From Gammaproteobacteria bacterium (lineage in GTDB: Bacteria > Pseudomonadota > Gammaproteobacteria > Tenderiales > Tenderiaceae), in the NCBI GenBank assembly GCA_016200485.1, contig JACQEP010000024.1:1-64000 (forward strand): a stretch of 64,000 bases of DNA. The letters run 5' to 3'. A program made the position numbers and the translations under genes. The notes beneath the pieces were generated by a model that worked only from the letters and a program-made list of their open reading frames with translations, made no database searches and was not told the DNA's origin. Within the stretch, counting starts at the first letter, position 1; every line of letters starts with the position of its first letter. Shown piece after piece: positions 21,806 to 57,639 of the stretch.

Positions 21806-21864
21806 AACAATCCTCTCGTGAACAACGGGTAACACTACCCTACAGCAGGAATCTTACCACCCGC

Positions 21865-22425: not shown

Positions 22426-22434
22426 GCCGATTCT

Positions 22435-26754: not shown

Positions 26755-26783
26755 TCAATCGTTCTCCCAAAATATTCCGCATT

Positions 26784-26958: not shown

Positions 26959-26970
26959 GTTATTACATTA

Positions 26971-28320: not shown

Positions 28321-28335
28321 TGTGAACTCTACTAC

Positions 28336-29004: not shown

Positions 29005-29006
29005 AA

Positions 29007-29624
29007 TCAGGAATTCAGATGCAGATGCTGCACACTGCCGACGGAGAGCGTGACCTCCTGGTGCGTGGTCAACATCACCATCCCACTCTTGGCCACATGT
29101 TCGGCGATAATTTCCTGCAACAAATTCACCGCCGTCACATCCAGCGCGACAAAGGGCTCATCCAGAATCCACAACTTCGCCGGTTGCAACAGCAGGCGGG
29201 CCAAGGCCACGCGCCGCTTTTGTCCCTGCGACAACACCTTCACCGGCAGATCGACACAACGCGCCAACCCCATCCGTTTCAACGCTGCTTCTACTGCCGC
29301 CTCAGTGACTTCAAAGCCACTCAAACCGCCAAAAATCTTTAAGTTCTCATAGCCCGTAAGCTCGTACTTCAATCCGGGCAAATGCCCCAGATACAGCAGC
29401 TCGCGGTGAAACTCCTCGCCTAACTTGCGTATCTCCTGGCCGTTCCATTCGATGCGGCCATGCTCGGGCAACACCAGTCCGGCAATCGTCCGCAGCAAGG
29501 TGGTCTTGCCGCTACCGTTGGGGCCATGGATATGCAGCACGCTACCTGATGCCAAGCCAAACGACAGCCCGGAAAACAACCGGCGGTCGCCGCGCACACA
29601 CTCCAGATCGCTAATGCCCAGCAT
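29007..29624 (-). CDS. ccmA: heme ABC exporter ATP-binding protein CcmA
   Basis: ATPase of the CcmABCD complex, 205 residues. Walker A GPNGSGKTTLLRTIAG, signature LSQGQKRRVALARLLL, Walker B LWILDEPFVALD, and H-switch TTHQEVTL. It is the first gene of the ccm operon (ccmABCDE-FGHI, then the tlpA-like gene). The upstream region to 29690 is short and no promoter stands out. Confidence 0.96.
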   Translation of the reverse strand: MLGISDLECVRGDRRLFSGLSFGLASGSVLHIHGPNGSGKTTLLRTIAGLVLPEHGRIEWNGQEIRKLGEEFHRELLYLGHLPGLKYELTGYENLKIFGGLSGFEVTEAAVEAALKRMGLARCVDLPVKVLSQGQKRRVALARLLLQPAKLWILDEPFVALDVTAVNLLQEIIAEHVAKSGMVMLTTHQEVTLSVGSVQHLHLNS

Positions 29625-42100: not shown

Positions 42101-42793
42101 TCAACGCTTCGAAAAATCAATCTCGTGCTGTTTGATCGCGGGTGAATCCGCCTCTGGCCCATTGCGCTCCGTCCATTCCCGGCCGCGTTTTTCCAGCCAT
42201 TGCTGCTCGTCTTTCGGTAACGGACCGCGCTTCAAGGTCGATTCCCACTCCCACAAGGCTGAGCGCGCCTTGCGCAAATAAGGATCATTGGGTGGCGAAA
42301 GATGAATAAACGTGCGCATCGCGCCCAACGCCCCTTCCACATCCCCCATCTGCTCCAGCGCAACCGCCAGCCCCCAATAGGCATTGGCCTGATACGGCTC
42401 GATCTCAAGTGCAATGTTGAAAAAATCACGCGCGGCGGGATAATTTTGCATCCCGATCAACGCATAACCCATATTGACATAAGCCTCGGGCATGCGCGGC
42501 GCCAATGCAATCACACGATGCAGTGCCGTTATCGCATAATCGTATTTTTTGGCATGCAGCATGGCCACGGCCTGCTGAAAACGTTCTTCCAGCTCACGCT
42601 GACGGTATTGTTGCGAATGGCCACGCGGATCGGCCTTGGCGTCGATGATGGTTTCTCGCTGCGGCATTTTCAGATCAAACTGTGACCGACCACCGAAACC
42701 CACGACCATGGCGGCCACCAGGCTCACCAAAACCACCGAGGTCACTGCCGTCAGACGTTCGCTCCCATCTTGCAGCAACAGTGCACCACTCAT
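42101..42793 (-). CDS. TPR membrane protein of the cytochrome assembly module (NrfG/CcmI-like role)
   Basis: 230 residues: N-terminal membrane helix (AVTSVVLVSLVAAMVVGFG), then three TPR units (about 70-170, EAYVNMGYALIGMQNYPAARDFFNIALEIEPYQANAYWGLAVALEQ) and a charged tail. Its start shares a base with the CcsA stop, so it is translationally coupled to resB-ccsA. By analogy with NrfG and CcmI, which recruit apocytochromes to heme lyases, it may guide the multiheme apocytochromes to this CcsBA; that is inference. Last gene of the cluster. Confidence 0.78.
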   Translation of the reverse strand: MSGALLLQDGSERLTAVTSVVLVSLVAAMVVGFGGRSQFDLKMPQRETIIDAKADPRGHSQQYRQRELEERFQQAVAMLHAKKYDYAITALHRVIALAPRMPEAYVNMGYALIGMQNYPAARDFFNIALEIEPYQANAYWGLAVALEQMGDVEGALGAMRTFIHLSPPNDPYLRKARSALWEWESTLKRGPLPKDEQQWLEKRGREWTERNGPEADSPAIKQHEIDFSKR

Positions 42794-43638
42794 TAAATCA
42801 CCCCTTTATGCGCCGCTTCACTGAAATACGGCGTACCAAAATAAGTCATGAATGCCAAACCGAAAATCGCAAGAATGGCCAGCGCGCCAATGCGCGACGG
42901 AATCTTGTAGCTCAATCGCGCATGAATGCCGGCGCCAATCGACAACCAGGTCAAAAATGCCGATGTCTCCAACGCATCCCAGGACCAATAACGCCCCCAG
43001 GCATCCTGCGCCCACACCGCACCCGCCACCAGCATCAAACTATCAAACACCAGTGCCAGCATCATGAAACGCCAGGCCATTTGATCGAGAACTTCATCCG
43101 GCATTTGTTTGAGCAATCCCGCGAAACGCGGCACCGTACGTAACAACATCACTCCCGCCAAACCGGCAGCAACCAGACAAAACGACAAAAATATTTTGCC
43201 CAGACTCACATGCGCCCATAACCAATTATTGAAATAGGTTGGCGGCAGTCGACTGTCGGCCGGTTCCAGCATCAGTATCCAACTACCGAGCAACCAGATC
43301 AGCGGCATCACCACGACCGCACTCGGACGTAACACCGGCACACGCCAATAGATGATGGAATACACTAAACCAAGACTGAACAACTGACTCATCAGCAGTT
43401 CAAAGAGATTAACGAACGGCCCATGGCCAAGCCGCTCCCAGCGCACGCCCAGCGCCATTGCCAGCAACACCACACCGGTGACGATCGCCAACAACACCCA
43501 GCGCTCATAGCTCAGACTATTAGCGACAGCAACACCACCGTTACTCACGCGCCAGACGCCACGAAAAGCCATCGCCATTGCGCCCGCGTACGCTAGCAAA
43601 CCCGCCCATAACCACGGCATTTCCGCGACCATCATCAT
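42793..43638 (-). CDS. ccsA: System II cytochrome c synthase subunit CcsA (CcmC/CcsA family)
   Basis: Multi-pass membrane protein carrying heme for attachment to apocytochromes. 281 residues with about eight helices and the tryptophan-rich WAQDAWGRYWSWDALETSAFLTWLS typical of CcsA. The periplasmic-side histidines are near RWERLGHGP and ANWLWAHVSLG. Overlaps ResB by one base. Some databases name this family CcsB; it pairs with the adjacent ResB protein to form a CcsBA synthase, separate from the ccm system encoded 14 kb away. Confidence 0.9.
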   Translation of the reverse strand: MMMVAEMPWLWAGLLAYAGAMAMAFRGVWRVSNGGVAVANSLSYERWVLLAIVTGVVLLAMALGVRWERLGHGPFVNLFELLMSQLFSLGLVYSIIYWRVPVLRPSAVVVMPLIWLLGSWILMLEPADSRLPPTYFNNWLWAHVSLGKIFLSFCLVAAGLAGVMLLRTVPRFAGLLKQMPDEVLDQMAWRFMMLALVFDSLMLVAGAVWAQDAWGRYWSWDALETSAFLTWLSIGAGIHARLSYKIPSRIGALAILAIFGLAFMTYFGTPYFSEAAHKGVI

Positions 43639-44657
43639 TACGCCTTCACCGTCCGATTTCCAATTAACGCCTGCTCACGACGCTCTGGCGTCGCCAGCAA
43701 TGGCTGACTGGCAAATTTGCGCCAGTAGTGATGCGCCAAACCCAAAACCGCGGTAATCGCCGAGATAAATAATCCATACAAGGTCGGATCATAAAAAATC
43801 TTGTACCCAATCCAGGTCGAAAGTTGCTCGTAACGCAATTTACCACCGGGCAAATCAACGCTTTCACCGGGCGCCAATTCCACACGGCGCTCGCCATTAT
43901 TGACCACCAGCACGCCCTTAGCCTTACGACCATCAAGCACCCACGATTGTTCCTTGGTATAGCCTGTATCCAACCGCAACCAGAACTTTATGGGCTTGCT
44001 GCCCGGCGGCGTCCACTCACTATCCTGCTTGTATTCAAACATGGGATACGATGGCATATTCAAGGTACCGGTCACTGGCTCCCCGGTTTCCGGCGTCCAG
44101 GTCAACACCGGGGCAAACCCTTTATTGAAGCTGGTATAGAAACGATATCCTTCCAGCAGCAGCGGTTTATCATCACCCACAATCTGCTCGCGCACGCTTC
44201 CATTCGCCTGCGGCAATAACACCTGGCTGCGCGTCGAGCCACGCGTCAAACCCGGCGCGTAATCCACCGTATAGAATCCCTGCGTGAAATTTACCTGCTC
44301 AAGAGCGCCGCGATGCCAAGGGCCTTGACGCACATCCGCCAGCATCTCTGTACTGAAAGGCATCCCTTGCCCCAGCTCAAAACGCGCCTCAAAAAAAGTC
44401 AGCCGCCCGACTGCCGCCAGCACACAAATCCCGAACAACCCGATATGAAACACCAGCAACCCGGGGCGCCTGTTAATCCCAGGTTGAGTAATAATCGCTG
44501 CCAGGAGATTGAGCGCCAGAAACAACATCGGCGACGTCAACATCCACACCGACGTTGCCGCCGGATCGTCGTAGCTTAGCCCTGCACTCACCGCCAGCCA
44601 CGCCATACCCAGCAGGGTAAGACGCGTCGACGCCAGTCTGCGCAACACGCGCATCAT
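43638..44657 (-). CDS. resB: ResB-like cytochrome c biogenesis protein (CcsB/Ccs1)
   Basis: Partner of CcsA in System II. 339 residues: two to three N-terminal helices (LTLLGMAWLAVSAGLSY, WMLTSPMLFLALNLLAAII, FHIGLFGICVLAAVG), a large periplasmic domain (about 105-290) and a C-terminal helix (LYGLFISAITAVLGLAHHYW). Overlaps the undecaheme cytochrome stop by 4 bp, so it is translated directly after it. This suggests a heme-attachment unit dedicated to that cytochrome. Confidence 0.87.
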   Translation of the reverse strand: MMRVLRRLASTRLTLLGMAWLAVSAGLSYDDPAATSVWMLTSPMLFLALNLLAAIITQPGINRRPGLLVFHIGLFGICVLAAVGRLTFFEARFELGQGMPFSTEMLADVRQGPWHRGALEQVNFTQGFYTVDYAPGLTRGSTRSQVLLPQANGSVREQIVGDDKPLLLEGYRFYTSFNKGFAPVLTWTPETGEPVTGTLNMPSYPMFEYKQDSEWTPPGSKPIKFWLRLDTGYTKEQSWVLDGRKAKGVLVVNNGERRVELAPGESVDLPGGKLRYEQLSTWIGYKIFYDPTLYGLFISAITAVLGLAHHYWRKFASQPLLATPERREQALIGNRTVKA

Positions 44658-47473
44658 GGGAGATTATTACACGCCTCGCTATCGGCACCAGGATCCGTCA
44701 TCCAGGGAACGTTGCCAAAGTTGTTATTACCGCCAACCCGGCCGTTGCCCGGCGTCCCTGCCGAACCACAACTGGTATGCACCCAGGCACCACTGCGGCG
44801 GAAGTTCACCACCTTCAGTACAGAACCGTTGTAATAGGGGCCACGATAATAACGTGCCGTGGTGCGATTACGCACTTGCGTGCCTGCCGTCAAACCTATC
44901 TCTGTACCCACATCATTGAGATTGGCAAGGAAGTTTTTATTCTTCCAGCCGTGCGGGATGGCGATGTGACAGAAGTTGCAACGGAAATTGGATACCTGGC
45001 CAGTTTGTGCGTGGCCGATGTGCAGATTGTCATCTGCCGCATACAAGCAGGACGCGGCTCCCGTCGCCTGCCCCGGCTCACGCGAGAATCCGCTACGACG
45101 GATTGTACCCGTAATAACCCCCTGCGGATTAGATTTGCCGTAGGACTCGTAGTTGTGACACTTGAAACACAAACCATCCGGCGTGTTGGTACCGGTATTT
45201 TCCTCCCACGCACCCTTGAGCAGAAAGTTGTTATTCGAGCCGTGCGGTCCCCACACGGGGCCATGAGGCTGTGTACCGCGCGGCACTGAAGTCCCGGCAG
45301 CGGTGTCACTGCCATGACAATCGGTGCAATACATGGTCTGCACGCCAACACCGGCGTTAAAAGGCTCCTGCCAGTCATTCGCATCGGCTTGGCGCTGATT
45401 ATCGGCGGGACTGACAAATCCTTGCACCCCAGGATTGGCTGCGCCCGCCACCGCCGTGCGCCCCGTCGGCCGCATCACTGGATGCCAGGCGCGATGATTC
45501 TCTTCGCGATAGTTGACGCAATTACCTTGCGGATCAGTGTAACCACCATAGGGCGGGTTGTAATAATTGCCATAAAGATTAGCGCCTGCCTGTGCCGCCA
45601 CAACATTCAGCGTTCCCGTGTTGATACTGGCGCATGGCGTACCTCCGACATAGGCGCCGGTAGGTGAAGCCGGCGCAGTATCATTAAATTCAGCCTTATG
45701 CGAATCCGGCGACTGATACTCCACCGCCTGATTGGTGTAATTAAAGAGCGAGTTGGTGCCGGGTGGCGTACCCCCAGAGTGATTCGTTCCCAGCGGCGGC
45801 GGATTGGAACCATAGCCGTAATTGGAGTGGCACTTCATACAGACCTGATATTCACGCGTCACATAACTTTCTGGCGGCCGGTCGTCATTGCTGGCCAATG
45901 TTGCCGGCGCCACACCCACCGAAGCCTCGCCGCGCTTGACCTCGAACGTCGGCATCTGATTGGGATCAAAAGCCGTCGTCGGCCAGCCATAAGGCTCAAC
46001 ACCCCATGCGCCGCGCAACACTCCCGAGGCAATATTGCTATGCTTGCCCGTCGGATCATTGGCGATCTGCGTTATGGTGTGATTGTGCGTACCTTCATTA
46101 TCAGGCGCTGCCGGATTGGCAAAGAACTGCCGGTTTTTGATCACGCGATGCGGATTGTGGCAGTCCGTGCACTCGGCATGGCGATTACTCAAATCACCAA
46201 AGCCCAGTCGCTGCCGTGACTCCAGAAAATCTTTACCGCCACCGATTTCATTGGTAGTGCCAATCGAATGCCGTTCTTCCTGTGCCGGTTGATCGCTACT
46301 GGCAATCGGCATGTGAACACGCATGGTCGTAAAATCGGTCTTGATATCCGGCACTGCGGAACCCGCGCCCTGACCTTGCAACACATTACCATCCGCCGAG
46401 TGACAGGCGTAACAGGTCTCTTCAATCGCCGCCTTACCACCCTGTTTAAACTTGGCGCCCTTGGTGGTAATCTGAGTATTCCCATCCGTGCCCTCACGCA
46501 AAATGCGGCGCGCCCCTTGCACCGTATGCGGATCATGGCAGTTCAGACATGCCGCCTGCCACACCTTCATCCCCTTAGGGAAATCACGCAGCTCGGCCGC
46601 AGCATCCGTATAAGTCTGACCACCGGCAACAGTGGCATCTGAATTCGCATGCGCGGACAGCGCCCAGCCTTCTTTTTGATGACACGCAAGACAAATAATG
46701 TCATTCGCCTTGTCAAACGCAGCCCTCTCTGCCGGCTGCGCCTTCTGGAAGCGATTGACGCGCAGGAACTTGATGTTCTCGCCCTCGGTACTGCGAATGT
46801 GAGGGTCATGGCAGGTAACGCATTCCATGTTGCCATCATCCAGCGGCAACAATGGTCGCTGCCCCGGCGCGCGCGTACCGATATGCGACTCCACTTCAGG
46901 AATACGTAACTCCTGGTCGCGCAACGCACGTGCTGAATTAAATTTAAACGAGATCGGATGGTCGTTGCTCAGATCCACACCCAGGCGCCGGGTAAATCCG
47001 CTTTGCTCGCCCATGCCTTCAGGCATAGTGCCATCCAGCTTGGTGCCACCGACGGTCACATTAGGGCGCTCAACCCGATTCAGCACATTCACCGCACCAA
47101 TCGCCAGCGTGCCATCATGACATGACAAACAAAGTTTGGATTTGGTATTCGGCTGACCGATGTCCTGAAATTCGAGTGAAGTGGAGCTGTAAGGCGTATA
47201 CGTTTGGCCGCTGAGTTTGCGATTCCAGATCGGCGCTTTTGCGACACTGGCGCCGCCATGAGGGGTATGACAAAAGGCGCAGACCTGAGACTCCGTGGTC
47301 GCCTGCACGTTACGCGCAATACCCTCCGGCAACGCCGGCACGATCGCCGCCGAGAAATTGTGCTTGGTGTTGCGGATATCCGAGACGCGATCAGCCTGGG
47401 CGTTAACGCCCAGCAGCATGCTTAGCGTCAGCAGTGTCCCCACCCTCCACAGCATCCCCATTCCCATCTCCAA
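44654..47473 (-). CDS. uetJ: undecaheme c-type cytochrome (11 CXXCH), extracellular electron transfer
   Basis: 939 residues with signal peptide (about 7-27, ending GVNAQA) and eleven heme sites at about 65, 115, 218, 261, 309, 354, 435, 545, 716, 769 and 832. The first four follow the order CAFCHTPHGG, CLSCHDGT, SNDHPI, CVTCHDPH, CLACH, shared with the tetraheme and pentaheme cytochromes of this window. Hemes 8-11 are widely spaced by Gly/Asn/Pro-rich segments. Five extra cysteines (614, 652, 809, 902, 935) fall outside heme motifs. Likely the terminal outer-membrane or cell-surface cytochrome of the conduit. The symbol follows my recollection of the uetA-J cluster of Ca. Tenderia electrophaga. 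The start overlaps the upstream NHL gene by up to 71 bp. Confidence 0.88.
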   Translation of the reverse strand: MEMGMGMLWRVGTLLTLSMLLGVNAQADRVSDIRNTKHNFSAAIVPALPEGIARNVQATTESQVCAFCHTPHGGASVAKAPIWNRKLSGQTYTPYSSTSLEFQDIGQPNTKSKLCLSCHDGTLAIGAVNVLNRVERPNVTVGGTKLDGTMPEGMGEQSGFTRRLGVDLSNDHPISFKFNSARALRDQELRIPEVESHIGTRAPGQRPLLPLDDGNMECVTCHDPHIRSTEGENIKFLRVNRFQKAQPAERAAFDKANDIICLACHQKEGWALSAHANSDATVAGGQTYTDAAAELRDFPKGMKVWQAACLNCHDPHTVQGARRILREGTDGNTQITTKGAKFKQGGKAAIEETCYACHSADGNVLQGQGAGSAVPDIKTDFTTMRVHMPIASSDQPAQEERHSIGTTNEIGGGKDFLESRQRLGFGDLSNRHAECTDCHNPHRVIKNRQFFANPAAPDNEGTHNHTITQIANDPTGKHSNIASGVLRGAWGVEPYGWPTTAFDPNQMPTFEVKRGEASVGVAPATLASNDDRPPESYVTREYQVCMKCHSNYGYGSNPPPLGTNHSGGTPPGTNSLFNYTNQAVEYQSPDSHKAEFNDTAPASPTGAYVGGTPCASINTGTLNVVAAQAGANLYGNYYNPPYGGYTDPQGNCVNYREENHRAWHPVMRPTGRTAVAGAANPGVQGFVSPADNQRQADANDWQEPFNAGVGVQTMYCTDCHGSDTAAGTSVPRGTQPHGPVWGPHGSNNNFLLKGAWEENTGTNTPDGLCFKCHNYESYGKSNPQGVITGTIRRSGFSREPGQATGAASCLYAADDNLHIGHAQTGQVSNFRCNFCHIAIPHGWKNKNFLANLNDVGTEIGLTAGTQVRNRTTARYYRGPYYNGSVLKVVNFRRSGAWVHTSCGSAGTPGNGRVGGNNNFGNVPWMTDPGADSEACNNLP

Positions 47474-48560
47474 GGTATTGAAAGATCACCACGCGGCCAT
47501 TAAACATGTCCGCCACATAGATCCAACCATTGTTGTCCACCCACGCGCCAGCGGGCAGGTAAAACTGGCCGATGTCCTGGCCGGTCCCCCCAAGTGGCAA
47601 GAGCAGCTCACCTTTGTTATTGAATACTAACAAATAGTCGTATAAGGATTCCACCACATAGATATTGCCGTCACGATCGGCGGCGACGCCCTTCGGCCGT
47701 GAAAAATCCCCCAGATACATCCCGCGGTGACCAAAGGCACGCTGAAACTCCCCGGCCGCAGAAAACAGCTGAATCCGGGAATTGAGCGAATCGGTCACAT
47801 AGAGAGTGTTGTCGCGGAATGACAGATATGTCGGACCATTCAGCAGCCCTTCTTTTTCACCCGGCCCGCCGAACTCAAACAAAAACTCACCCGCCGCGGA
47901 GAAGACCTTGATCGCACTATCGGCCCGATCTGCGACATAAAGCCGCCCAGCGGCCTCATCCCAAGCCACGCCGGTAGGATGCTGCAGCCGATCCTGCCCG
48001 ACCACAGACATGGGCTGCCCGGCAGCATTTAACTGCACAACATAGCCGAGTTTGGAATCCGCCACCCAAAGGTGTCCGGCACGATCCACTGCCACCCCGA
48101 TCGGCAACTCAAACCGCACGCCCGACGCTGCGTATTCCCACACCAACAATTCTTTTGCGCCCGGGTCAAATACATACACTGCCTGGCGACTGACATCACT
48201 GACAAAAATTCGGCCATCGGCGCCCACTGTTCCCGATTGCGGCCGCTGCAAGATCACGGGGCCAGGGGTATGACGCACCCATCCCACCAGCCAGTAAAAA
48301 AAGCGAATACCTACGTTGGGCTTGGCCTCTACCGTATCACGGAAATTTTCTTCACCTGTCAACTGCCCGAGATAACGATAGCGCGGCTTCTCCGGCGGCT
48401 CCGGCCAGACCTTGGCCACCGTTTGCCGTGCATCACCACGATAATGAAATACCTTCGGCGCCTGGGCGCAGCCTGACAACACCAGAGCCAGAATCAATAT
48501 TAAAGATCTAACGCAAAGACGCGGAGGCGCAGAGGACGCAGGACCAATAATTTCAAACAT
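47403..48560 (-). CDS. NHL-repeat lipoprotein of the cytochrome cluster (second copy)
   Basis: 385 residues: lipobox LVLSGC (Cys about residue 31) and a six-bladed NHL propeller (FVSDVSRQAVYVFDPG, HLWVADSKLGYVVQLN, LYVADRADSAIKVFSAAGEF, LYVTDSLNSRIQLFSAAGEF, IYVVESLYDYLLVFNNKGEL, IYVADMFNGRVVIFQYL). The N-terminal residues about 7-17 (PASSAPPRLCVR) are encoded by one arm of a palindromic repeat (48511-48540), so the present start may be recruited from repeat DNA. The C-terminal tail overlaps the cytochrome start. Probably an outer-membrane-attached scaffold for cytochromes. Confidence 0.85.
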   Translation of the reverse strand: MFEIIGPASSAPPRLCVRSLILILALVLSGCAQAPKVFHYRGDARQTVAKVWPEPPEKPRYRYLGQLTGEENFRDTVEAKPNVGIRFFYWLVGWVRHTPGPVILQRPQSGTVGADGRIFVSDVSRQAVYVFDPGAKELLVWEYAASGVRFELPIGVAVDRAGHLWVADSKLGYVVQLNAAGQPMSVVGQDRLQHPTGVAWDEAAGRLYVADRADSAIKVFSAAGEFLFEFGGPGEKEGLLNGPTYLSFRDNTLYVTDSLNSRIQLFSAAGEFQRAFGHRGMYLGDFSRPKGVAADRDGNIYVVESLYDYLLVFNNKGELLLPLGGTGQDIGQFYLPAGAWVDNNGWIYVADMFNGRVVIFQYLGDGNGDAVEGGDTADAKHAAGR

Positions 48561-48694
48561 ATTCGTCCCGTATCAATAACGAAAGCATTTTAAGTTTCAC
48601 AAAACAAGAATATTGTGATGACAAAAGTAACGGCGCAGAGACATAAAGACATTGAATAAGTTTGCGTCCTCTGCGTCTCCACGTCTTTGCGTTG
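48510..48694. repeat. ACGCAAAGACGCGGAGGCGCAGAG inverted repeat pair
   Basis: Left arm (48511-48540, ACGCAAAGACGCGGAGGCGC ...) lies inside the 5' coding region of the NHL gene. The right arm (48663-48693, containing CCTCTGCGTCTCCACGTCTT) is its inverted copy. The same family flanks 62623-62728. Confidence 0.65.
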
Positions 48695-48727
48695 GATTTT
48701 TATGTTTGCGATAAATGGCAGTAAACA

Positions 48728-49903
48728 TTATTTCGCAGGCGGCAATACACCACTCCGCTCCGCCGCCATGCGGCCAATCTGGATCCGGCCATTGAGACTA
48801 TCGACGACATACAGCGATTGCCCTTCCAACCACAAATCTTCAATCCGCTTGAACTGACCCGGCGCACTACCATGGCCACCCAGCATCCCGATCAAGCGCC
48901 CACGATCAAACACCTTGATCAAATCATCTGCGTAGTCACCGACATAGGCGCGATTATTGTTATCAACGGCGATTGACGACGGGAACGTGACTTTTTGTTC
49001 CTCAAAGGAATACAAATACATCCCTTCCGCCGATAACACCTGCAATTTACGGCCGACGCGGGCACCCACGTAATAACCGTCCGGCCCGCGCGCCAGCGAC
49101 GTGATATTGATAAATTCACCCGAACCCGCACCGCGGCCACCATAGGTCATGGTCAACTGGCCCGCGCCATTGAAGCGCACCAACTGATCATAATGCCCGT
49201 CCGCCACCACCAGACCGCCATTATTTTCGACCACCAAACCGACCGGTTTGGCGAGGTTCAGCCGATTCTTGAACACCTGCCGCAGACGGCCATTTTCATC
49301 CAGCCACAGCACTTGCGCAGCGGTCATGTCCGCCAGATAAATCGAAAAATCCGGCGCCACATAAATATCGCGCACTTCGCCTTTGGTCACTGCTTTGAGG
49401 TCGACGACTTTTTCCAAGCGCGTGGAAATACGATCATAACGAAAGACGGCATCGTGACCGGCATCCACCACGTAGACAAAATCGCCACGCACCGCCACCG
49501 CCACCGGGCGCTGGAAGCGAATCTGAACCACACCCGTGATGGCATTACCAATCAGCCCGCCATCGATAACCTGCCAATCAAAAACTTTGATCGGCGCAAC
49601 AAAGTTTGGACCGGGTAACGGTGGCGCTGTCAGATCCGGCACTTCTACTGCCTCTTCCGCAAGCTCGGGGGGAATATCGAGATTGGAACGGCTGCTTTCT
49701 TTGGCTACGGCCGGAGGCGGCGCCGCCGTGCCCAGACTAAAATCCTGGAACAACTCGGCCAGCTCAGCGGCTTTTTCATCTTTGATTTGAGGTTCTTTGG
49801 CCTGTTCACGCGGCAGACTGCCGCAACCAGACATCAACACCGTCAGCCCCAGCAGGCAGGTGCTTATCTGATACCCGGTGCGTCTCGAGGCACTGAATGA
49901 CAT
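48728..49903 (-). CDS. NHL-repeat lipoprotein of the cytochrome cluster (first copy)
   Basis: About 391 residues: lipobox LTVLMSGC, a Pro/Ala/Glu-rich linker (about 30-95), then a six-bladed propeller (RGDFVYVVDAGHDAVFRYDR, FSIYLADMTAAQVLWLDENGRL, GGLVVADGHYDQLVRFNGAGQ, RAYVGDYADDLIKVFDRGRL, SLYVVDSLNGRIQIGRMAAE). The start at 49903 overlaps the triheme gene end by 40 bp. Paired with the second NHL protein; both are expected to face the periplasm or outer-membrane inner leaflet next to the beta-barrel. Confidence 0.85.
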   Translation of the reverse strand: MSFSASRRTGYQISTCLLGLTVLMSGCGSLPREQAKEPQIKDEKAAELAELFQDFSLGTAAPPPAVAKESSRSNLDIPPELAEEAVEVPDLTAPPLPGPNFVAPIKVFDWQVIDGGLIGNAITGVVQIRFQRPVAVAVRGDFVYVVDAGHDAVFRYDRISTRLEKVVDLKAVTKGEVRDIYVAPDFSIYLADMTAAQVLWLDENGRLRQVFKNRLNLAKPVGLVVENNGGLVVADGHYDQLVRFNGAGQLTMTYGGRGAGSGEFINITSLARGPDGYYVGARVGRKLQVLSAEGMYLYSFEEQKVTFPSSIAVDNNNRAYVGDYADDLIKVFDRGRLIGMLGGHGSAPGQFKRIEDLWLEGQSLYVVDSLNGRIQIGRMAAERSGVLPPAK

Positions 49904-50457
49904 CGTCCACAATTCTTGGTTGGCGGAAATGCCACTTTACCATGACATACTCCGCAATACTTTCCCTGAATGATGGCAGACATCGTAACGGGATTACCAC
50001 CCTTCTGCATCAAGAATATTTCGGGGTGGCAATTTTTACACGTCAGCCATTCCGTGTGCTGGCGATGAGGATAACGTACATAGGGCATTGAGCCCGTATT
50101 CTGGAAGATAACATCGAAATCGACCGGGTACATTTCTTCATCGCCCAGCAAACTCATCCGTGGCGTGATCAGCCCTTGATCCAGCGTCTTGACCCAATCG
50201 ATCACCCCCGACTTATCGCGAGGAAAGCCGGCCATTGCCTCCACTGGCTCCTGCAATACCTTGACCGCATCGTTGCTCGGATCATGGATGCCATCCTCGG
50301 ACACCGGCACCGCTCTGCTATCCAGCTGATAGTGATCGCCGCCGGACCAGAATTCACCACTGAACTTATCCTGCACATACGCAGCGCGCGGCAACAACCC
50401 TATCGCCAAGGTTGCCACAAACACCATGCACAGAATTATCAGCTTCCTACGAAACAT
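49864..50457 (-). CDS. triheme c-type cytochrome (c7-like), third of three
   Basis: 197 residues: signal anchor (about 5-25), a conserved spacer domain (DGIHDPSNDAVKVLQEPVEA ... IDWVKTLD) and a triheme domain with CKNCH (140-144), CGVCH (168-172) and CGRCH (183-187). Interspersed histidines (YPHRQHTEW) can serve as distal ligands, as in c7/c3-type cytochromes. Closely similar in layout to the 229-residue cytochrome at 52174-52863. Periplasmic electron carrier or conduit component by inference. Confidence 0.88.
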   Translation of the reverse strand: MFRRKLIILCMVFVATLAIGLLPRAAYVQDKFSGEFWSGGDHYQLDSRAVPVSEDGIHDPSNDAVKVLQEPVEAMAGFPRDKSGVIDWVKTLDQGLITPRMSLLGDEEMYPVDFDVIFQNTGSMPYVRYPHRQHTEWLTCKNCHPEIFLMQKGGNPVTMSAIIQGKYCGVCHGKVAFPPTKNCGRCHSVPRDAPGIR

Positions 50458-50540
50458 GCCGGAAAACCTACCCTTGGAATACAGGAGGGCGCCCCCCTCC
50501 AGGAGGGCGGCCCCAGCACACTATACACGCCGACCAGAGA

Positions 50541-52034
50541 TTATTGAACCCCGGCAAGACGCAAGGCACGCTGCAGATTGGAAGTCGCGGCCTCCATCGC
50601 CATGATTGCCATTTTATAATCACCCTTGGCCGCAACCTCTGCACCCTCGCGTTTGATCTGAGCAGCTTTTTTCACCAGCTCATCAATCATTTCCAGGGCG
50701 CGTTCAGCCGGCTGCTTCTGCTCAATGGCGAGCGGGATCAACTCTTCATAATTTTCAAGGCGCGACAGTTCGAATTCATATTCGTCTTTAGGCGTCTCGA
50801 AACTCTTGTCATACACCACGGTCTGCGACTGCAACATGTCGGTCAGGACCACAGTAATCATCGCCTGCGCCTTGTGCAACGACTTATTGGCACCGGCATA
50901 ATCGCCCTTGCCACCCAAGCTTTTACCTTCGCTCAGCAAGCGTTGATATGCAGCCTCGTCCAACACACTCTTGGGTTTCTGGCCGGACTTCTTCAGACGG
51001 TCCATGTTGCGCTTATATGAAATATCATAATTGCCAAGCGCCGAAATCAACTCGCCATACATGGCCTTGTGATCAACTGCCGCCATGTCGCTTTCGGTGG
51101 TCACGCTGCGCGAAGCTGAATTTACCAGGCGCAGACCTTCGTTCACCTGATCCATCGCCTGATCCAATTTGCCCGCGCTCAATGAGGCGCGCGCGGCATC
51201 AATCTGCTGCCGCGCCTGCTTCAACATGCCGATCGCCGCCGCATCGCCACTGCTCTCGATGCGATGCGAACTATCCGATTTCAGCACCATGTCGGCATAG
51301 CCAAGTTTTTGTTTGACGGCGCCCTCAGTCACCACCGCCGCGCGCTGACCGCCACTGACAGCCGCCTCTTCGGTAGCGCCCGCAGCTTCTTTCGCCTTGG
51401 CCAGGCTATCGCCCTTGTTGAGCACAAAAATTTTACCGCCCATATATTTATGGTTACGGCACTCGTAATAGAGCAAATCCGGCGTCCCCTGATCAGGCTT
51501 GAACGCCACCTCACCCTGGTAAATAAACTGCCCGGTAACACCATCGGTATAAGTACCTGCCCCCCAGCCTGCCGGGCTGGTGGTGAGATAGAAATCGTGT
51601 TGAATTCCGGTATCAACAGCAAATTTATAGACCTGGCCACGAGTGACCGCGATTTCCTTGCCCTGAGCCCCATTGACCGCAAAACCCATTCGCGATCCCT
51701 TGCTGAAATTAGGATGCGATTCATCCTTGTCAACGGCAGTAATCAAAAAGGTGTTCGGATCGGAGGACAGCTTCATCGGTGCCGATGAAGTCGCTGGCTT
51801 AGGCGCTGACTTTGCCGCCGCCGGCTCGACAGTCGCCGCTTGCGCGGGCGGTGGCGTCATCGGCGGTGGCGTAACGGTCGCCACATTCGGTGTAGGCGCC
51901 TGACTTGCCGCGCGCGGCGCGGCTGTAGTGGCGGAAGGCGCCACGTCAGCTTGCTTCTCTGGTGTCGAACCGCCGCACCCTGCCAGGATGGCCGCGATAG
52001 ACAAAGACAATACCTTAACTTTTATTTGCTTCAT
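50541..52034 (-). CDS. lipoprotein with cupredoxin-like copper motif and helical C-terminal domain
   Basis: 497 residues: lipobox LAGC (Cys 20), Pro/Ala/Thr-rich linker (21-88), then a beta-rich domain (about 90-208). That domain has the ligand set of a type 1 copper site, H146 (GIQHDFYL) and C192-x2-H195-x2-M198 (YYECRNHKYMGGKIFV). A long helical region follows (about 225-497, AIGMLKQARQQIDAARASLSAGKLDQAMDQVNEG) of the kind used in binding scaffolds. It lies between triheme cytochrome genes, so a copper electron-transfer or docking role is plausible; copper binding is inference from motif order. Confidence 0.8.
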   Translation of the reverse strand: MKQIKVKVLSLSIAAILAGCGGSTPEKQADVAPSATTAAPRAASQAPTPNVATVTPPPMTPPPAQAATVEPAAAKSAPKPATSSAPMKLSSDPNTFLITAVDKDESHPNFSKGSRMGFAVNGAQGKEIAVTRGQVYKFAVDTGIQHDFYLTTSPAGWGAGTYTDGVTGQFIYQGEVAFKPDQGTPDLLYYECRNHKYMGGKIFVLNKGDSLAKAKEAAGATEEAAVSGGQRAAVVTEGAVKQKLGYADMVLKSDSSHRIESSGDAAAIGMLKQARQQIDAARASLSAGKLDQAMDQVNEGLRLVNSASRSVTTESDMAAVDHKAMYGELISALGNYDISYKRNMDRLKKSGQKPKSVLDEAAYQRLLSEGKSLGGKGDYAGANKSLHKAQAMITVVLTDMLQSQTVVYDKSFETPKDEYEFELSRLENYEELIPLAIEQKQPAERALEMIDELVKKAAQIKREGAEVAAKGDYKMAIMAMEAATSNLQRALRLAGVQ

Positions 52035-52119
52035 TGCAACTCTCCCACGTCAGCTACTTGTTCAATGCAGACTGCGATCCCTGTGAGACATCCGACATCC
52101 ATTTGATATCCCTATCAGT

Positions 52120-52147
52120 GAGAAGGCCGCCCAAAGGCGGCCCTCTC
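52120..52147 (-). promoter_or_regulatory. strong intercistronic hairpin
   Basis: GAGAAGGCCGCC and GGCGGCCCTCTC form a 12-bp stem (one mismatch) with a 4-base loop between the second triheme gene and the cupredoxin-like gene. No U-tract follows on the minus strand, so an mRNA-stabilising or processing element is more likely than a full terminator. Confidence 0.5.
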
Positions 52148-52173
52148 AGAGCACACTCTAGATAGAGTAACGG

Positions 52174-52863
52174 TTAACGCCAAGGATTCTTTAGCGTTGA
52201 CTCACTCAAAGGCGGCTGCCAATCGGCCGGCTTCGGCTTGGAGTGACACTTCTTACAAGATTTGGTGGTGATCGGGAAGGACACCTTACCGTGGCACACA
52301 CCGCACTTCTGGCCGAGCAGGATCGCCGACATATTGATCTGGTTGGCACCCTTTTGTGGCACGAAGATGGCCGGATGGCAGTTGGAACAAGCCAGCCACT
52401 CGGTATGCTGACGATGCGGGAACACCACATCCGGCACCGAGGCCTTCACTTCACGGACGATGTCCATATCCATGACGAAGGGTTCTTCGTTGGAGTTGAC
52501 ACGATCCCAGCGCGGCGAGAGTTTTTTCTCGTCGATGGCCTTCACCCAGTCCACGTAGTTACCGAATTCGCTCGGCGGCAGACCCTGATAGGCTTCCAAT
52601 GGCGGCTGCAACACGAAGGTACCTTCGTTTTCAGCATCATGGATACCATCTTCCGGCGGCGGCGCGTTCTTCATCTTCTCCTTTTTCAGGTTCCGATTAA
52701 AGTTGTTAGAGCCTGCCACTTGCGCCACAACGATCGGCACTTGCTGAGACTGAGCCACAACACCACCAGCCTTGTTGGAAGCTGGCTCTGCGCTGTGCGC
52801 CGGAGCAGACATCGCAAAAGCCAGGGTCAACGACATTACAAAATGTTTAGCTTGACGCTTCAT
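52174..52863 (-). CDS. triheme c-type cytochrome (c7-like), second of three
   Basis: 229 residues: signal peptide (ending SAPAHSAE), a linker, the shared segment DGIHDAENEGTFVLQPPLEAY ... YVDWVKAIDEKKLSPRW, and a triheme domain with CSNCH, CGVCH and CKKCH. HRQHTEWLACSNCHP is almost identical to the 197-residue paralogue, so the two arose by duplication. Preceded 14 bp upstream by the 143-residue triheme gene. Confidence 0.9.
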   Translation of the reverse strand: MKRQAKHFVMSLTLAFAMSAPAHSAEPASNKAGGVVAQSQQVPIVVAQVAGSNNFNRNLKKEKMKNAPPPEDGIHDAENEGTFVLQPPLEAYQGLPPSEFGNYVDWVKAIDEKKLSPRWDRVNSNEEPFVMDMDIVREVKASVPDVVFPHRQHTEWLACSNCHPAIFVPQKGANQINMSAILLGQKCGVCHGKVSFPITTKSCKKCHSKPKPADWQPPLSESTLKNPWR

Positions 52864-52877
52864 GATTGCCCGCCCCC

Positions 52878-53306
52878 TTATTGCTTCTGCTCAACGGGCT
52901 TGTAGGGTGGCGCCACCAGGCGCTGAACCGTACTGCCGTGGAAATGGGTCGGAGTGCCTGGGATACCGGAATGGCACATGGCGCAGTTTTCTACAGACCA
53001 AGCCACTTCACCGTTATGGCAAGCGCCGCAGAACTTGCCGTCGATGATCTTGGCCATGGTGATCTTGTTGCCACCGGCCTTGAACTGGAAACCCAGGTCG
53101 GCGTGACAAACTTTGCAACGGAAACGAATGCGATGGAACCAGTGCGGGAAGACAACGGGACGAATACCGGCGGCATCCGCGTAGTTGTTGATCACCACGT
53201 CTGCATATTCGGCGTGCGCTGCTTGCGGGATAAAAAACGCGGCCAGCCAGGCCGTCACCCCCAGCAGAACATACCGCCACTTACTGTGCTTGGTAACACG
53301 TGACAT
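52878..53306 (-). CDS. triheme c-type cytochrome (c7-like), first of three
   Basis: About 142 residues: signal peptide (ending PQAAHAE) and one triheme domain with CKVCH, CGACH and CAMCH, plus His residues in FPHWFHRIRF and THFHGST that can complete bis-His ligation. Shorter than its two relatives and without their spacer domain. An AAGGAGAA site lies upstream; a TTG at 53312 two codons earlier is an alternative start. Expected as a soluble periplasmic shuttle to the outer-membrane conduit. Confidence 0.9.
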   Translation of the reverse strand: MSRVTKHSKWRYVLLGVTAWLAAFFIPQAAHAEYADVVINNYADAAGIRPVVFPHWFHRIRFRCKVCHADLGFQFKAGGNKITMAKIIDGKFCGACHNGEVAWSVENCAMCHSGIPGTPTHFHGSTVQRLVAPPYKPVEQKQ

Positions 53307-53396
53307 ATCCAATGTTCTCCTTACTATTTATAAATGTTATGAAAACTCGTTTAGATATTTTTATTATTTTTCAATCAGATCCACTCAAAAACACCA

Positions 53397-55169
53397 TCAG
53401 AACCGGCGCATGACGCGGAAGTATAGCAGATCATAATCGGTGCCGTCAGTATCCGTCAAACGCAAACTGAGGCTGGTGTCGAGCATGCCAATACTATAGA
53501 AAAGGGCATTCTCCCAATCGGTGCGGTCGATGGCGCCTTCGATCGAGATCCGGGAGATTATGTAATCGGAGATAAAACGTAATCGCGGCACGCCAAACAT
53601 TTGCAGATGTTCCAGCCGCAGCTGCCCGGTAGTACTGGTGGTTCGGGTGACGACCGTGCTGTAGGTATACTTCACCCATTGCATCGAAATATTACCTGTC
53701 AGGCTGGTGCGGCGCCCGAACTCCTGGGTACGGTTAAGCTGGACATTGGCCAGTTGCCGGTAATCATGCGAATCGACAAAATCCCGCGAGTCGGAGACCG
53801 TCGCCTGCGCCAGCGTCGTACCCTGCCAAGCGGTCTGGTAATAGCCCAAGGAGGCCGTGTGATCCAGACGCGGCACGGTGGCGCGGGTAGTCGCCGCCGC
53901 GCCGCTGTAATCATAGGACACGGCCTGCCCGGCGCTCAGCCGCACCGAATCAGTGGCATTCGATTTCTCCTGCGGATACCAGTTCCAGCTCAGGTTATGC
54001 CCGGCCTGCACACCGCCGTAGGTGTAATCATCAGTGGGCACCGCCTGATGATCCCAGGAGACATTGCCATACCCCTGCCACATCCCGCCCAACACCTGTC
54101 CCCAGTCCGTCTGATACTGGGCACCGACATGCTGACGGTGATCTTCGCTGGTGGTACCCGCCGTATAGTTGAAGGTGGAGGCAAAACTGGAATCCAGCCG
54201 CAGATTGTTGGTCATTTGATAAAACAGACCGGCATTGGCGGCGACCTGCGTCTGATCATTGGTGGCCACCGTTCCCTGCGAACCATCCAGGGTCATCAGC
54301 CGCATCCCGCCGCTGACCGTAAACGGCGAATTCACCGGCCGCCAGAAGGCAAAGCTCGACAATTGCGTGATATCCGTTCTCGACAGGCGCGTATCCTGAC
54401 TCGTCGGATCCAGAAATGAGCGATCATACTGATACGCGCTCACCTTGCTATCGAGACGAAAATGACTGACCGGCGTGTAAAAATGACTCAAATCAACAAT
54501 CGTGTTTTTGTTCTCGCGCCCGGCCACGGAATGCTGAGTCGTCTCGTAAGTGCCACGCGCCAGCATATGTTGCTGCGGCTTGCGCCAATCGGCATCAAAA
54601 CCAAGCGTCTGATCGTCGTACTTCCCCGTCGCGACCGAATCCCAGGTGCGATAATCATAACGCGCCTGATAACGACCGCCGTTTTCCGGCAGATATGACT
54701 GCCGCAGCCCAACAGAGGTACTTGAATAATCCTGGCCAACGAACGTGATCGGCGTCCCGCCCGTTTCCTGCCGATTGACGCGACTATCGCTCTTTTGCAC
54801 ATGCAGATTAAAAGGCGCATGGCTTTGCGGCATCACATCCAGCCCCCAATCCGCCGTCGCGATGCTGGCGTTATTGGTGCTGCTGGTGGAACCGGTTTGA
54901 GCAGTGATGCTGTCCTGGGTCAACGTTAACGACAAGTCCGTCGTCGCCAGGTACGGCTCCCAGAAATAAGTGGAAAGGTTCAGATTGGCCGCCAACTGAT
55001 TACTGACGTCGGAATCACCGGTCGACTCTTTCAGCGACCGATAGTTATAGCCAAGATAGCCTGATGACTCGACCGGCCCCAGGAATTGAGCAGCAGGCGC
55101 CGTCCCGCAGCTTGCCAGCCACAGTCCGCACACCCCTTGCACCATCATGCGCCGACGCCTTACTACCAC
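53397..55169 (-). CDS. outer-membrane beta-barrel of the porin-cytochrome conduit (MtrB-like role)
   Basis: 590 residues: Arg-rich n-region and signal peptide (ending CGTAPAAQ), then many amphipathic alternating strands with Tyr/Trp girdles (SGYLGYNYRSLKE, LSTYFWEPYLATTDLSLTLTQD, LNLHVQKSD-type strands). The C-terminal strand ends DLLYFRVMRRF, with the terminal Phe typical of BAM substrates. The size suits a barrel of more than 20 strands that can enclose a multiheme cytochrome, as MtrB/PioB do. No sequence relation to MtrB can be shown by eye. GTG at 55169; ATG at 55148 is an alternative start. Its neighbours (parvulin, trihemes) support the role. Confidence 0.82.
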   Translation of the reverse strand: MVVRRRRMMVQGVCGLWLASCGTAPAAQFLGPVESSGYLGYNYRSLKESTGDSDVSNQLAANLNLSTYFWEPYLATTDLSLTLTQDSITAQTGSTSSTNNASIATADWGLDVMPQSHAPFNLHVQKSDSRVNRQETGGTPITFVGQDYSSTSVGLRQSYLPENGGRYQARYDYRTWDSVATGKYDDQTLGFDADWRKPQQHMLARGTYETTQHSVAGRENKNTIVDLSHFYTPVSHFRLDSKVSAYQYDRSFLDPTSQDTRLSRTDITQLSSFAFWRPVNSPFTVSGGMRLMTLDGSQGTVATNDQTQVAANAGLFYQMTNNLRLDSSFASTFNYTAGTTSEDHRQHVGAQYQTDWGQVLGGMWQGYGNVSWDHQAVPTDDYTYGGVQAGHNLSWNWYPQEKSNATDSVRLSAGQAVSYDYSGAAATTRATVPRLDHTASLGYYQTAWQGTTLAQATVSDSRDFVDSHDYRQLANVQLNRTQEFGRRTSLTGNISMQWVKYTYSTVVTRTTSTTGQLRLEHLQMFGVPRLRFISDYIISRISIEGAIDRTDWENALFYSIGMLDTSLSLRLTDTDGTDYDLLYFRVMRRF

Positions 55170-55221
55170 TGCCGTCCCCGCATGCCGGTCATTTTGATTC
55201 GATGGCCCATTATGCCCCGAG

Positions 55222-56193
55222 TCATTCGTTTATCGTTATCGTTGTATCCACAACATCGATCCGCGCTGCTGCCCGCAACCGCTGTAACAACGCCTCCCAC
55301 TGCCGCCCCCCTTGATCCCGCTGCCACAATGCCTGCGCCCGCGCCGCCACTTGCTCAAAGGCATTGAGCTGCGGCGACTGACGCTCCAGCAAACGAAACA
55401 GCGCTATTCCTTGCAATAACGGCACTGGCTCTGAAATCTTGCCCGGCGTCAATTTATCCACGGCTAGCTGCGCCTCGGCCGACAACATCCCCTTATGCAC
55501 AAAACCCAGGTCGCCACCCTGCTCCGCCGAGGCATCGCCCGAATGCATCCGCGCCAGATCGGCAAAATTTTCACCGCGCTGCAATCTCTGCTGCAAACGC
55601 TTTGCTTCCTCCTCGGCCGCCCGCCACGCGGTGACTGGCGCCGATGGCGCGACCTTGAGCAGAATCACCGCCAGATGCAACCGTTCCGGCGTCGTAAACA
55701 AATCCTTGTGCGCGGCGTAATAAGCCTGCGCCGCCTTTGAATCCGGCGTCACCTGCCGCATCTGGCGCTCCAGCGCCGCCAGTCGCAACTGTTCCTCGCT
55801 CTGCTGCCGCAACTGCGCCTCGACCTGCACACGCTGCGCCTTATTCAGCCGCTCCAGACGCAGCTGCGCCGCGCCGCGCCGCATTTCATCCTGCAACGCC
55901 GCCTCCGCCACCACGATACCACGGCGCCGCGTTTCAGCCAGCAACAATTGTCGATCGATCAACTGCTGCGCCACCTCGCGCCGCAACTGCTCCAGTTTAT
56001 TTTGCTCTGCGCCACCATGAAAAAATTTCTGCCGCGATGCGCCATGCACCGCCGCCTCAAATTCGGTACGCGTGATCGTCACGCCATCGACCACGGCGAA
56101 TACTGACGATTCTGCAGCCACTGTCACTAACGGTAACAGCGCACACAGCACAGCCAACGTGCGTGCACACCGTCTCACAATCAACACTTTCAT
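55222..56193 (-). CDS. periplasmic PpiC-type parvulin prolyl isomerase/chaperone
   Basis: About 323 residues: signal peptide (ending LVTVAAES), a SurA-like helical N-terminal domain (about 25-150), then a parvulin domain (about 160-265). The parvulin domain has LHLAVILLKVAP, GENFADLARMHSGDASAEQGGDLGFVHKGMLSAEAQLAVDKL and PGKISEPVPLLQGIALFRLLE. Probably helps fold the adjacent beta-barrel or the secreted cytochromes. A similar isomerase accompanies porin-cytochrome clusters in iron-oxidising and biocathode bacteria, from memory. Confidence 0.88.
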   Translation of the reverse strand: MKVLIVRRCARTLAVLCALLPLVTVAAESSVFAVVDGVTITRTEFEAAVHGASRQKFFHGGAEQNKLEQLRREVAQQLIDRQLLLAETRRRGIVVAEAALQDEMRRGAAQLRLERLNKAQRVQVEAQLRQQSEEQLRLAALERQMRQVTPDSKAAQAYYAAHKDLFTTPERLHLAVILLKVAPSAPVTAWRAAEEEAKRLQQRLQRGENFADLARMHSGDASAEQGGDLGFVHKGMLSAEAQLAVDKLTPGKISEPVPLLQGIALFRLLERQSPQLNAFEQVAARAQALWQRDQGGRQWEALLQRLRAAARIDVVDTTITINE

Positions 56194-56212
56194 CACGCCA
56201 TGCACCACATCA

Positions 56213-56362
56213 ACACCCTCTCCCTCCGGGAGAGGGCTGGGGTGAGGGAATCCAAAACAAAACCCATTTTTTATCCCCTCATCCTCGGCAACTGCTCCTT
56301 GCGTTGCCCTACCTCGCGCATCCCTGCGCTCGTAACCTTCTCCCGGAGGGAGAAGGGACTAA
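56213..56362. repeat. Composite palindromic repeat element, copy B
   Basis: Palindromes at 56216-56236 (CCCTCTCCCTCCGGGAGAGG) and 56336-56356 (CCTTCTCCCGGAGGGAGAAG) flank a 41-bp core (56283-56323) that matches copy A (29786-29826) in inverted orientation at 38 of 41 positions. Lies between the tetraheme and parvulin genes. Confidence 0.65.
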
Positions 56363-56373
56363 AACTACACACC

Positions 56374-57189
56374 CTACTTGTTATGACAGGTCAGACACAG
56401 CTGACTGCCATCCGGTTTGATGCGCAAAAACGTCGGATTGTAATCCACATGCGGATCATGGCACGACGCACACTCCACATACGGCTGCGGATCGCCGACA
56501 TAGGCGCCCTTGCTGCCGGTGCGCGTATACAGCTTCATATCCGTGCGCTCAAAATCCGCGCTGCCATTCGGCGTATTGACCCACCACACGCGGCTGGTGC
56601 CCAAAATCTGGGTTGAGGCAGGATTAAAATCCGGATCGTGCCCCGGCCCTGCCGGATTGGTCAGCGAATAGCCACCGCCGGCATATTGAATGCCGATCGG
56701 ATGATCGTTCGTCAGATCCTTGCCCAGATTGGTGATTACATCCGGCCGCCCAATTCGTCCCTGCACCGTCGCCGCCTGACCACGCCAGGTACCGCGTTCA
56801 AAACCAGGCACCACGCGCCCCGAGCCCGGCTCGTTGAGCAAGGCATCCATCGCCTGTGTGCCGTCGTGACAGGAAAGACAGGCCAGCGACACCGAACCTA
56901 CCGGCTCAACCTTGGCATCGAGCGTGGTAGTGCCCATCTGATCATAAGTGGTGTAGCCATTGGGATCGAGATTGCGGTTCCACAACGGCGCATCGGCCTT
57001 GCCGTCGCCGCCGTGCGGCGTATGGCAAAACACACAGATCTCGCGCGTGCCGCTGAAGGTGCTGGCCGCATTCAGGCCTGTGGCGCCCAAATTATGCTTG
57101 GAATTGAAAATACCGGCCTGCGCCAGGGTGACGCAGAACACCAAAATCCCCGCCGCCAAGGCCCAGCGCTGTCGCCGTGTTGTTATCAT
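56374..57189 (-). CDS. tetraheme c-type cytochrome, first gene of the conduit cluster
   Basis: 271 residues: signal peptide (about 9-25, ending TLAQAG) and four CXXCH sites at 52-56 (CVFCHTPHGG), 104-108 (CLSCHDGT), 240-244 (CASCHDPH) and 265-269 (CLTCHNK), with TNDHPIG between the second and third. This is the doubled-CXXCH architecture, nearly collinear with the first 270 residues of the undecaheme protein. A GGGGAG site precedes the ATG. It opens the ten-gene operon; position suggests a periplasmic or outer-membrane electron donor or acceptor. Confidence 0.9.
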   Translation of the reverse strand: MITTRRQRWALAAGILVFCVTLAQAGIFNSKHNLGATGLNAASTFSGTREICVFCHTPHGGDGKADAPLWNRNLDPNGYTTYDQMGTTTLDAKVEPVGSVSLACLSCHDGTQAMDALLNEPGSGRVVPGFERGTWRGQAATVQGRIGRPDVITNLGKDLTNDHPIGIQYAGGGYSLTNPAGPGHDPDFNPASTQILGTSRVWWVNTPNGSADFERTDMKLYTRTGSKGAYVGDPQPYVECASCHDPHVDYNPTFLRIKPDGSQLCLTCHNK

Positions 57190-57242: not shown

Positions 57243-57324
57243 ACAAAACACTGGGTTAAGATGAAGCCGTAGAACGCGCGACACATCGGCCCGATTAGCA
57301 TTGGTGCGCACGGCGCACCCTACA

Positions 57325-57639
57325 TACTGGGACGTAAAATATCCCATGATCAGCAAGGCGTGGCGCAAGCACTGGGACACCCTCAACCCCCTGTTTGCCT
57401 ATCCGCCCGAGATTCGCAAAGTCATCTACACCACCAACGCCATCGAATCTTTGAACAGCGTCATCCGCACCGCTACCCGTAAACACAAGATCTTCGCTCA
57501 CGATGACTCGGCGTTTAAAGTGGTGTACCTGGCGATCCAACAGGCTTCAAAAAAATGGACGATGCCGATTCACAACTGGAAGATGGCCATGAACCGGTTT
57601 ATGATCGACTTCGAGGATCGCCTCAAAAACTATGTTTAA
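57325..57639 (+). pseudogene. IS256-family transposase, 3' remnant
   Basis: About 105 residues match the C-terminal end of IS256 (mutator) transposases: KYPMISKAWRKHWDTLNPLFAYPPEIRKVIYTTNAIESLNSVIRTATR and KKWTMPIHNWKMAMNRF. The catalytic DDE region upstream is gone; homology starts just after a short palindrome (GTGCGCACGGCGCAC). Dead element, lying between the conduit operon and the BrnTA pair. Confidence 0.88.

Follow-up and report, generated by a model that had tools for sequence, protein, structure and literature searches.

The uet cluster of a Tenderiales bacterium: a probable outer-membrane electron-uptake conduit with an OmcE-type cytochrome, a predicted cupredoxin and adjoining haem-attachment genes

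Gene content and organisation of the locus

The window analysed here is a stretch of 64,000 nucleotides (contig JACQEP010000024.1, positions 1 to 64,000, assembly GCA_016200485.1) from a gammaproteobacterium of the order Tenderiales, and the uet locus within it is described by its gene content and order, its conservation, the homologies of its products and their predicted folds. Ten genes are read on the minus strand from 57189 to 44654. The first, uetA (56374-57189), encodes a tetraheme cytochrome of the OmcE type and candidate extracellular filament subunit with four CXXCH motifs. It is followed by uetB (55222-56208), encoding a parvulin/SurA-like periplasmic peptidyl-prolyl isomerase (PF00639, E 3e-16; SurA_N_2), and by uetC (53397-55169), encoding a predicted outer-membrane beta-barrel. 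Three genes specify triheme c7 cytochromes, namely uetD (52878-53312; PF14522, TIGR04257 nanowire_3heme, PDB 3ov0 at E 9e-46), uetE (52174-52863), whose product has an N-terminal extension, and uetG (49864-50457), the last two being assigned by Pfam C7, three CXXCH motifs each and family profiles. Between uetE and uetG lies uetF (50541-52034), which encodes a lipoprotein (lipobox ILAGC). Two NHL-repeat lipoproteins are encoded by uetH (48728-49912; PF01436, lipobox LMSGC), which overlaps uetG and has an uncertain start codon, and by uetI (47403-48560; PF01436, E 6e-26, lipobox LVLSGC), which overlaps the start of uetJ (44654-47473), the gene for an 11-heme cytochrome. A remnant of a Mutator-family transposase occupies 57301-57639 on the plus strand, between uetA and the upstream porin gene.

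An earlier note on this DNA had proposed the ten minus-strand genes, a total of 24 heme-c sites and an identity as uetA-J. All ten open reading frames are present in that place and on that strand, a recount by CXXCH motif returns the same sum (uetA 4, uetD 3, uetE 3, uetG 3, uetJ 11), and a motif count over the ten frames found no CX3CH or CX4CH sites in the cytochromes. The proposed gene kinds likewise agree with Pfam, which places a parvulin domain in UetB, C7 in UetD, UetE and UetG, NHL repeats in UetH and UetI, and paired-CXXCH matches in UetA and UetJ. The name uet stands for undecaheme electron transfer (Eddie et al. 2022, as relayed in PMC10734462 and PMC12575090). In the published description, UetA is a tetraheme cytochrome, UetB a peptidylprolyl isomerase, UetC a beta-barrel porin, UetD, UetE and UetG trihemes, UetH and UetI NHL proteins and UetJ the undecaheme cytochrome (PMC10734462), and in Ca. 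Tenderia electrophaga the corresponding run comprises the trihemes Tel_16515, Tel_16520 and Tel_16530, the TPR gene Tel_16525 and the undecaheme gene Tel_16545 (PMC5371394). Kinds and order at the present locus match both the description and the run Tel_16515-16545. Because haem numbers, gene order and gene lengths recur in all relatives, the cluster is not a chance assembly. The ten genes thus form a genuine cluster that already has a name, uetA-J, and that probably carries electrons through the outer membrane. To the account relayed in these papers, the present analysis adds signs that UetA is kin to OmcE, that UetF has a copper site and that the cluster has haem-attachment genes of its own.

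The extent given in the earlier note needs amendment: its ten genes stand, but the conserved unit does not end at uetJ, as it runs on to 42101 and comprises 13 genes. The additional genes, all on the minus strand, are a resB-like gene for System II cytochrome c assembly (43638-44657; PF05140), which overlaps uetJ by four bases (44654-44657), a ccsA-like cytochrome c assembly gene (42793-43638; PF01578, E 5e-19), which overlaps resB by one base, and a TPR gene (42101-42793; PF07719 and other TPR matches), which overlaps ccsA by one base. In the order, resB comes next after uetJ in all eight relatives readable at this point, and ccsA and the TPR gene follow wherever the contig continues (seven relatives). 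Among more distant loci (the best 80 of at least 494), resB directly follows uetJ in 55 of the 70 that have at least 1.5 kb downstream; in the subset of 57 whose downstream sequence reaches 4 kb, ccsA is present as well in 43 loci and the TPR gene in 42. The genome holds a single ResB match, the gene adjoining uetJ, and the window carries a separate System I (ccm) set at 21488-29624, apart from the System II pair resB-ccsA at 42793-44657. For these reasons (conserved adjacency, a sole ResB and a separate ccm set), resB-ccsA-TPR is likely to be a haem-attachment module dedicated to the Uet cytochromes. The same suggestion of a dedicated role has been made for ResB/ResC pairs beside Geobacter cytochrome genes (PMC2700814).

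The product of uetC, about 590 residues long, had been taken for a barrel in the earlier note, a claim that would have fallen had no barrel topology emerged. An AlphaFold2 model built from nine sequences has 26 strands, and a Foldseek search of the PDB with it ranks MtrB, from the Mtr complex, at the top (6r2q_B, E 1.4e-6, TM 0.34), followed by other outer-membrane barrels. A C-terminal Phe is present in all nine sequences. UetC has no Pfam match, and profiles of UetC and UetF returned nothing meaningful among PDB sequences. A large predicted outer-membrane barrel therefore lies beside multiheme cytochromes, albeit one whose model is not cleanly closed and reaches a pLDDT of only 59 (pTM 0.48). 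The model supports assignment of UetC as an MtrB-like outer-membrane barrel, with modest confidence in the exact number of strands.

OmcE-type modules and a predicted cupredoxin

When compared by phmmer with all solved chains in the PDB, UetA matches 7TFS (E 2.9e-24) and 9yuq (E 1e-23). Since no further multiheme cytochrome of known structure appears up to E 1, the similarity is not a generic effect of CXXCH motifs. 7TFS is the OmcE filament (PMC12954529), in which one haem receives a ligand histidine from the adjacent subunit (PMC12954529, PMC9473688). The alignment extends over the full length at 37% identity, UetA being about 40 residues longer, and the two proteins have in common four CXXCH motifs, four further histidines (KH, TPH, NDHP, CHxxH) and a terminal CxxCHxK, with the eight haem-ligand histidines co-aligned and the distal ones of UetA standing in the OmcE order. 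Across 36 UetA rows, H32, H59, H163, H247 and all CXXCH histidines are invariant wherever present, and beyond these eight no further histidine is conserved. Judged from sequence comparison, UetA is homologous over its whole length to OmcE, a cytochrome-filament protein of Geobacter; the plain label of tetraheme cytochrome in the earlier note was correct but incomplete. In UetJ, the N-terminus up to about residue 270 also matches OmcE (E 4e-26) and contains the same tetraheme module; the other seven sites follow it. A weak resemblance to the DmsE/MtrA decaheme family, below the family cut-off, is seen at residues 252-364 of UetJ in 9/9 orthologues.

This anatomy of UetJ suggests that it may join an OmcE-like filament to the barrel. 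On the fullest reading, which we put forward tentatively and with clearly less than even confidence, UetA would form a filament, UetJ would act as its adaptor into the UetC barrel with the cupredoxin and the trihemes behind, this arrangement would be found in several classes of Proteobacteria, and in the Tenderiales it would serve as an uptake wire. A plain Mtr-like conduit that lacks a filament has a chance only slightly short of even: UetA would then be a monomeric surface cytochrome whose likeness to OmcE reflects shared tetraheme ancestry. The identity of just 37%, the occurrence of the same module inside UetJ, where polymerisation is not expected, and the lack of any reported Tenderiales filament in the literature searched are consistent with such a conduit, whereas the four distal histidines (one of them intersubunit in OmcE; PMC12954529) and the CxxCHxK terminus, shared with OmcE and likewise invariant in the 36 UetA rows, argue for the filament. 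The role of cytochrome filaments in electron transfer by Geobacter is itself disputed (PMC11077965; PMC13194489).

Elsewhere in the window, at 14711-16586 on the plus strand, a second OmcE-like cytochrome gene, whose product has five CXXCH motifs and ends in CETCHIK, overlaps a gene for an NHL lipoprotein. This pair, which adjoins ccm genes in G003, G008 and G010, the relatives where the region was read, may represent a further system of filament-type or surface cytochromes. Divergent from it and conserved with it are two minus-strand genes at 12473-14619, each with three CXXCH motifs and of the Cytochrome_CBB3 type. Two adjacent propeller proteins are encoded at 16577-21475 on the minus strand (the one tested is of the Reg_prop type), and next to them lies a large sensor-type gene whose product carries a CXXCH close to its N-terminus; the trio is conserved together in relatives.

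Rusticyanin is the blue copper protein of iron oxidation in Acidithiobacillus. A related fold is predicted for the domain at about residues 90-210 of UetF, whose DNA as modelled covers 140 codons (51396-51815, minus strand): the AlphaFold2 model has a pLDDT of 91, and its best solved folds are rusticyanins in 8/9 cases (E 5e-5 to 2e-4, TM about 0.45), followed by the multicopper oxidases, laccases and CueO. The residues H146, C192, H195 and M198 (protein numbering) are invariant in 28 aligned domains and also in A3. UetF is thus confidently predicted, on the basis of modelling, to carry a cupredoxin domain with a candidate His-Cys-His-Met copper site, fused to a TPR-like C-terminal half. The earlier note had called it a copper-motif lipoprotein, which was correct but incomplete. 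The match to rusticyanin indicates a common fold and not membership of the rusticyanin family; fold and His-Cys-His-Met pattern are shared, but identity is 15-19%, with no close kinship, and UetF differs in being a lipoprotein, in its fused TPR-like part and in its short Cys-x2-His-x2-Met loop, which is amicyanin-like. The Tenderia orthologue of UetF is annotated by TPR alone in PMC5371394.

Conservation, distribution and two architectures

Within the order (one family, five genera), relatives of UetJ or UetA were found in all 11 genomes, and wherever contigs are long enough the uet genes of these genomes keep one order and adjoin rplM-rpsI and the porin gene. All ten genes are present in G003, a relative from the same family as the genome studied. 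UetD is the most conserved gene product in the order (88-94% identity), and UetJ orthologues there are 65-71% identical. The earlier note would have been contradicted had the best matches been unrelated, non-clustered cytochromes; the relatives are instead clustered in the same order. UetC occurs in 41/370 sampled gammaproteobacterial genomes, and UetJ relatives were detected in at least 494 stretches in a genome scan, all such counts being lower bounds for the collection searched. The distant set consists of the best 80 of these loci, in which 84/86 UetJ copies have exactly 11 CXXCH motifs. UetJ was not found on the plasmids of PLSDB, and there is therefore no sign of spread by plasmids.

Among the best 80 loci, two architectures can be distinguished. 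Type I, to which the present locus belongs, has the order A-B-C-D-E-F-G-H-I-J and, when complete, nearly always 24 sites. Type II has the order A-B-C-D-E-F1-F2-G-D'-(H)-I-J and mostly 25-28 sites, usually with an extra triheme, and its members include Ramlibacter, Rhodoferax, Rhodocyclales, Kiloniellaceae, Magnetococcales and Thiodiazotropha. Its F1 and F2 products match the TPR-like half of UetF alone, and accordingly have no copper domain. In a UetJ tree made by a quick method and rooted at its midpoint, the type I loci all group within a single clade (support 99, 42 rows), and the type II loci all lie in the other half. The uet family thus appears to be large and to comprise two architectures, with the cupredoxin-TPR fusion confined to one branch. 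In six loci uetJ is duplicated in tandem or near-tandem (L077, L081, L083, L086, L094 and L121), the copies in L086 being nearly identical. A Noviherbaspirillum locus (L125, 1-9000) retains uetI-uetJ-resB-ccsA and has an upstream cytochrome with 24 CXXCH motifs in place of the usual uetA-G.

In every locus where they were seen, the parvulin and barrel genes separate uetA from the trihemes, an arrangement which, taken with the presence of LptD and the type 1 pilus assembly platform among the UetC fold matches below MtrB, would suit a line for the secretion and maturation of a surface cytochrome, made up of parvulin, barrel, haem lyase, TPR and propeller proteins, with UetC as a translocon and not an electron-conducting sheath. 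We regard such an export function as very unlikely, given that MtrB is the best fold match of UetC and that nearly every complete cluster encodes three or four trihemes together with the 11-heme protein, components for which an export machine would have no use.

Proposed electron path and comparison with known systems

We consider it likely that the uet genes of this bacterium encode an outer-membrane electron-uptake conduit, organised as one 13-gene unit, uetABCDEFGHIJ-resB-ccsA-TPR. The path that we infer, including the location and contacts of each cytochrome, any polymerisation and the direction of flow, would be as follows. UetC would form a large outer-membrane barrel like MtrB, and UetJ would bridge the barrel region, its N-terminal OmcE-type module facing UetA and its remaining haems continuing the chain. 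UetA would probably lie outside the cell, where it may form a cytochrome filament by polymerisation or cap one. UetD, UetE and UetG, together with the cupredoxin of UetF, would relay electrons through the periplasm to respiratory complexes of the inner membrane. UetB would help to fold or export the outer-membrane parts, UetH and UetI would provide propeller scaffolds, and ResB-CcsA-TPR would attach haem to the Uet cytochromes. Electrons would most likely move inwards, from an extracellular donor to UetA, to UetJ/UetC and on to terminal oxidases and, by reverse transport, also to NAD(P)H for CO2 fixation.

Inward flow is favoured because the genome encodes two RuBisCO large subunits and several haem-copper oxidases, a layout as described for Tenderia electrophaga, and because the trihemes of cathode-grown Tenderia are among its most highly expressed genes (PMC5371394). 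Two observations count against an uptake conduit: the Tenderia undecaheme gene showed no differential expression when two cathode potentials were compared (PMC5371394), and relatives occur in many lineages not known for electron uptake, such as Ramlibacter, Thalassotalea and Magnetococcales. A search of the genome with the Porin_O_P family, a weak test for Cyc2, gave no match, and the literature search found no direct experiment on any Uet protein. The same conduit run outwards, to reduce Mn or Fe oxides or another acceptor outside the cell, is possible because related parts reduce metals in Geobacter, where OmcE and triheme c7 relatives serve this purpose (PMC12307469), and because a study of a ghost-rock metagenome mentions undecaheme cytochromes in a Mn-reducing Dechloromonas (PMC13264449); relatives in many heterotrophic lineages would also fit. 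We nevertheless think this direction unlikely, since the genome has its two RuBisCOs and oxidases, and orthologues are strongly expressed on a cathode that supplies electrons, with O2 as the acceptor (PMC5371394).

The transfer of electrons between the inside of the cell and cytochrome filaments on its outside is described as poorly understood (PMC10553843). Should UetA prove to be a filament subunit of the OmcE type, one conserved operon would hold both filament and conduit, and UetJ would be a filament module fused to further haems, making the link between the two testable. As the cluster is common and UetJ relatives include those of named Ramlibacter, Thalassotalea and Noviherbaspirillum strains, genetic work may be feasible in organisms other than the uncultured Tenderiales.

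The uet cluster of Ca. Tenderia electrophaga, from the same bacterial order, shares all ten gene kinds and their order with the present locus, nothing essential differing between them, and a review states that uetABCDEFGHIJ is conserved in the Tenderiales (PMC12575090). With MtrCAB and MtoAB, uet has in common a barrel of about 26 strands, that of MtrB being the best fold for UetC; it differs in that UetC has no sequence match to MtrB, MtrC/OmcA is absent, and trihemes, a cupredoxin and NHL proteins are added. MtrAB proper was considered and rejected, given the missing Pfam match of UetC and the score of UetJ against the DmsE/MtrA family (46 bits, cut-off 192). PCC3, which has a periplasmic cytochrome with 21-27 hemes and a large extracellular cytochrome (PMC10734462), was likewise rejected, as the largest cytochrome here has 11 sites. 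OetABI with filaments of the OmcS/OmcX type, from sulfate-reducing partners of ANME (PMC10553843), shares the idea of a filament combined with a porin-cytochrome conduit; in these Desulfobacterota, however, the cytochromes and heme numbers differ, and the likeness is one of description. Related operons have been reported with PPIase and beta-propeller genes (PMC12246660). In Geobacter, too, the OmcE gene has a ResB/ResC pair nearby, but the operon of uetA also encodes a barrel and a cytochrome with 11 hemes. A further neighbour of the OmcE gene is ppcA (GSU0612), which encodes a triheme c7 cytochrome. It lies near the OmcE gene (GSU0618) of Geobacter sulfurreducens, as does the ResB/ResC pair GSU0613-0614 (PMC2700814).
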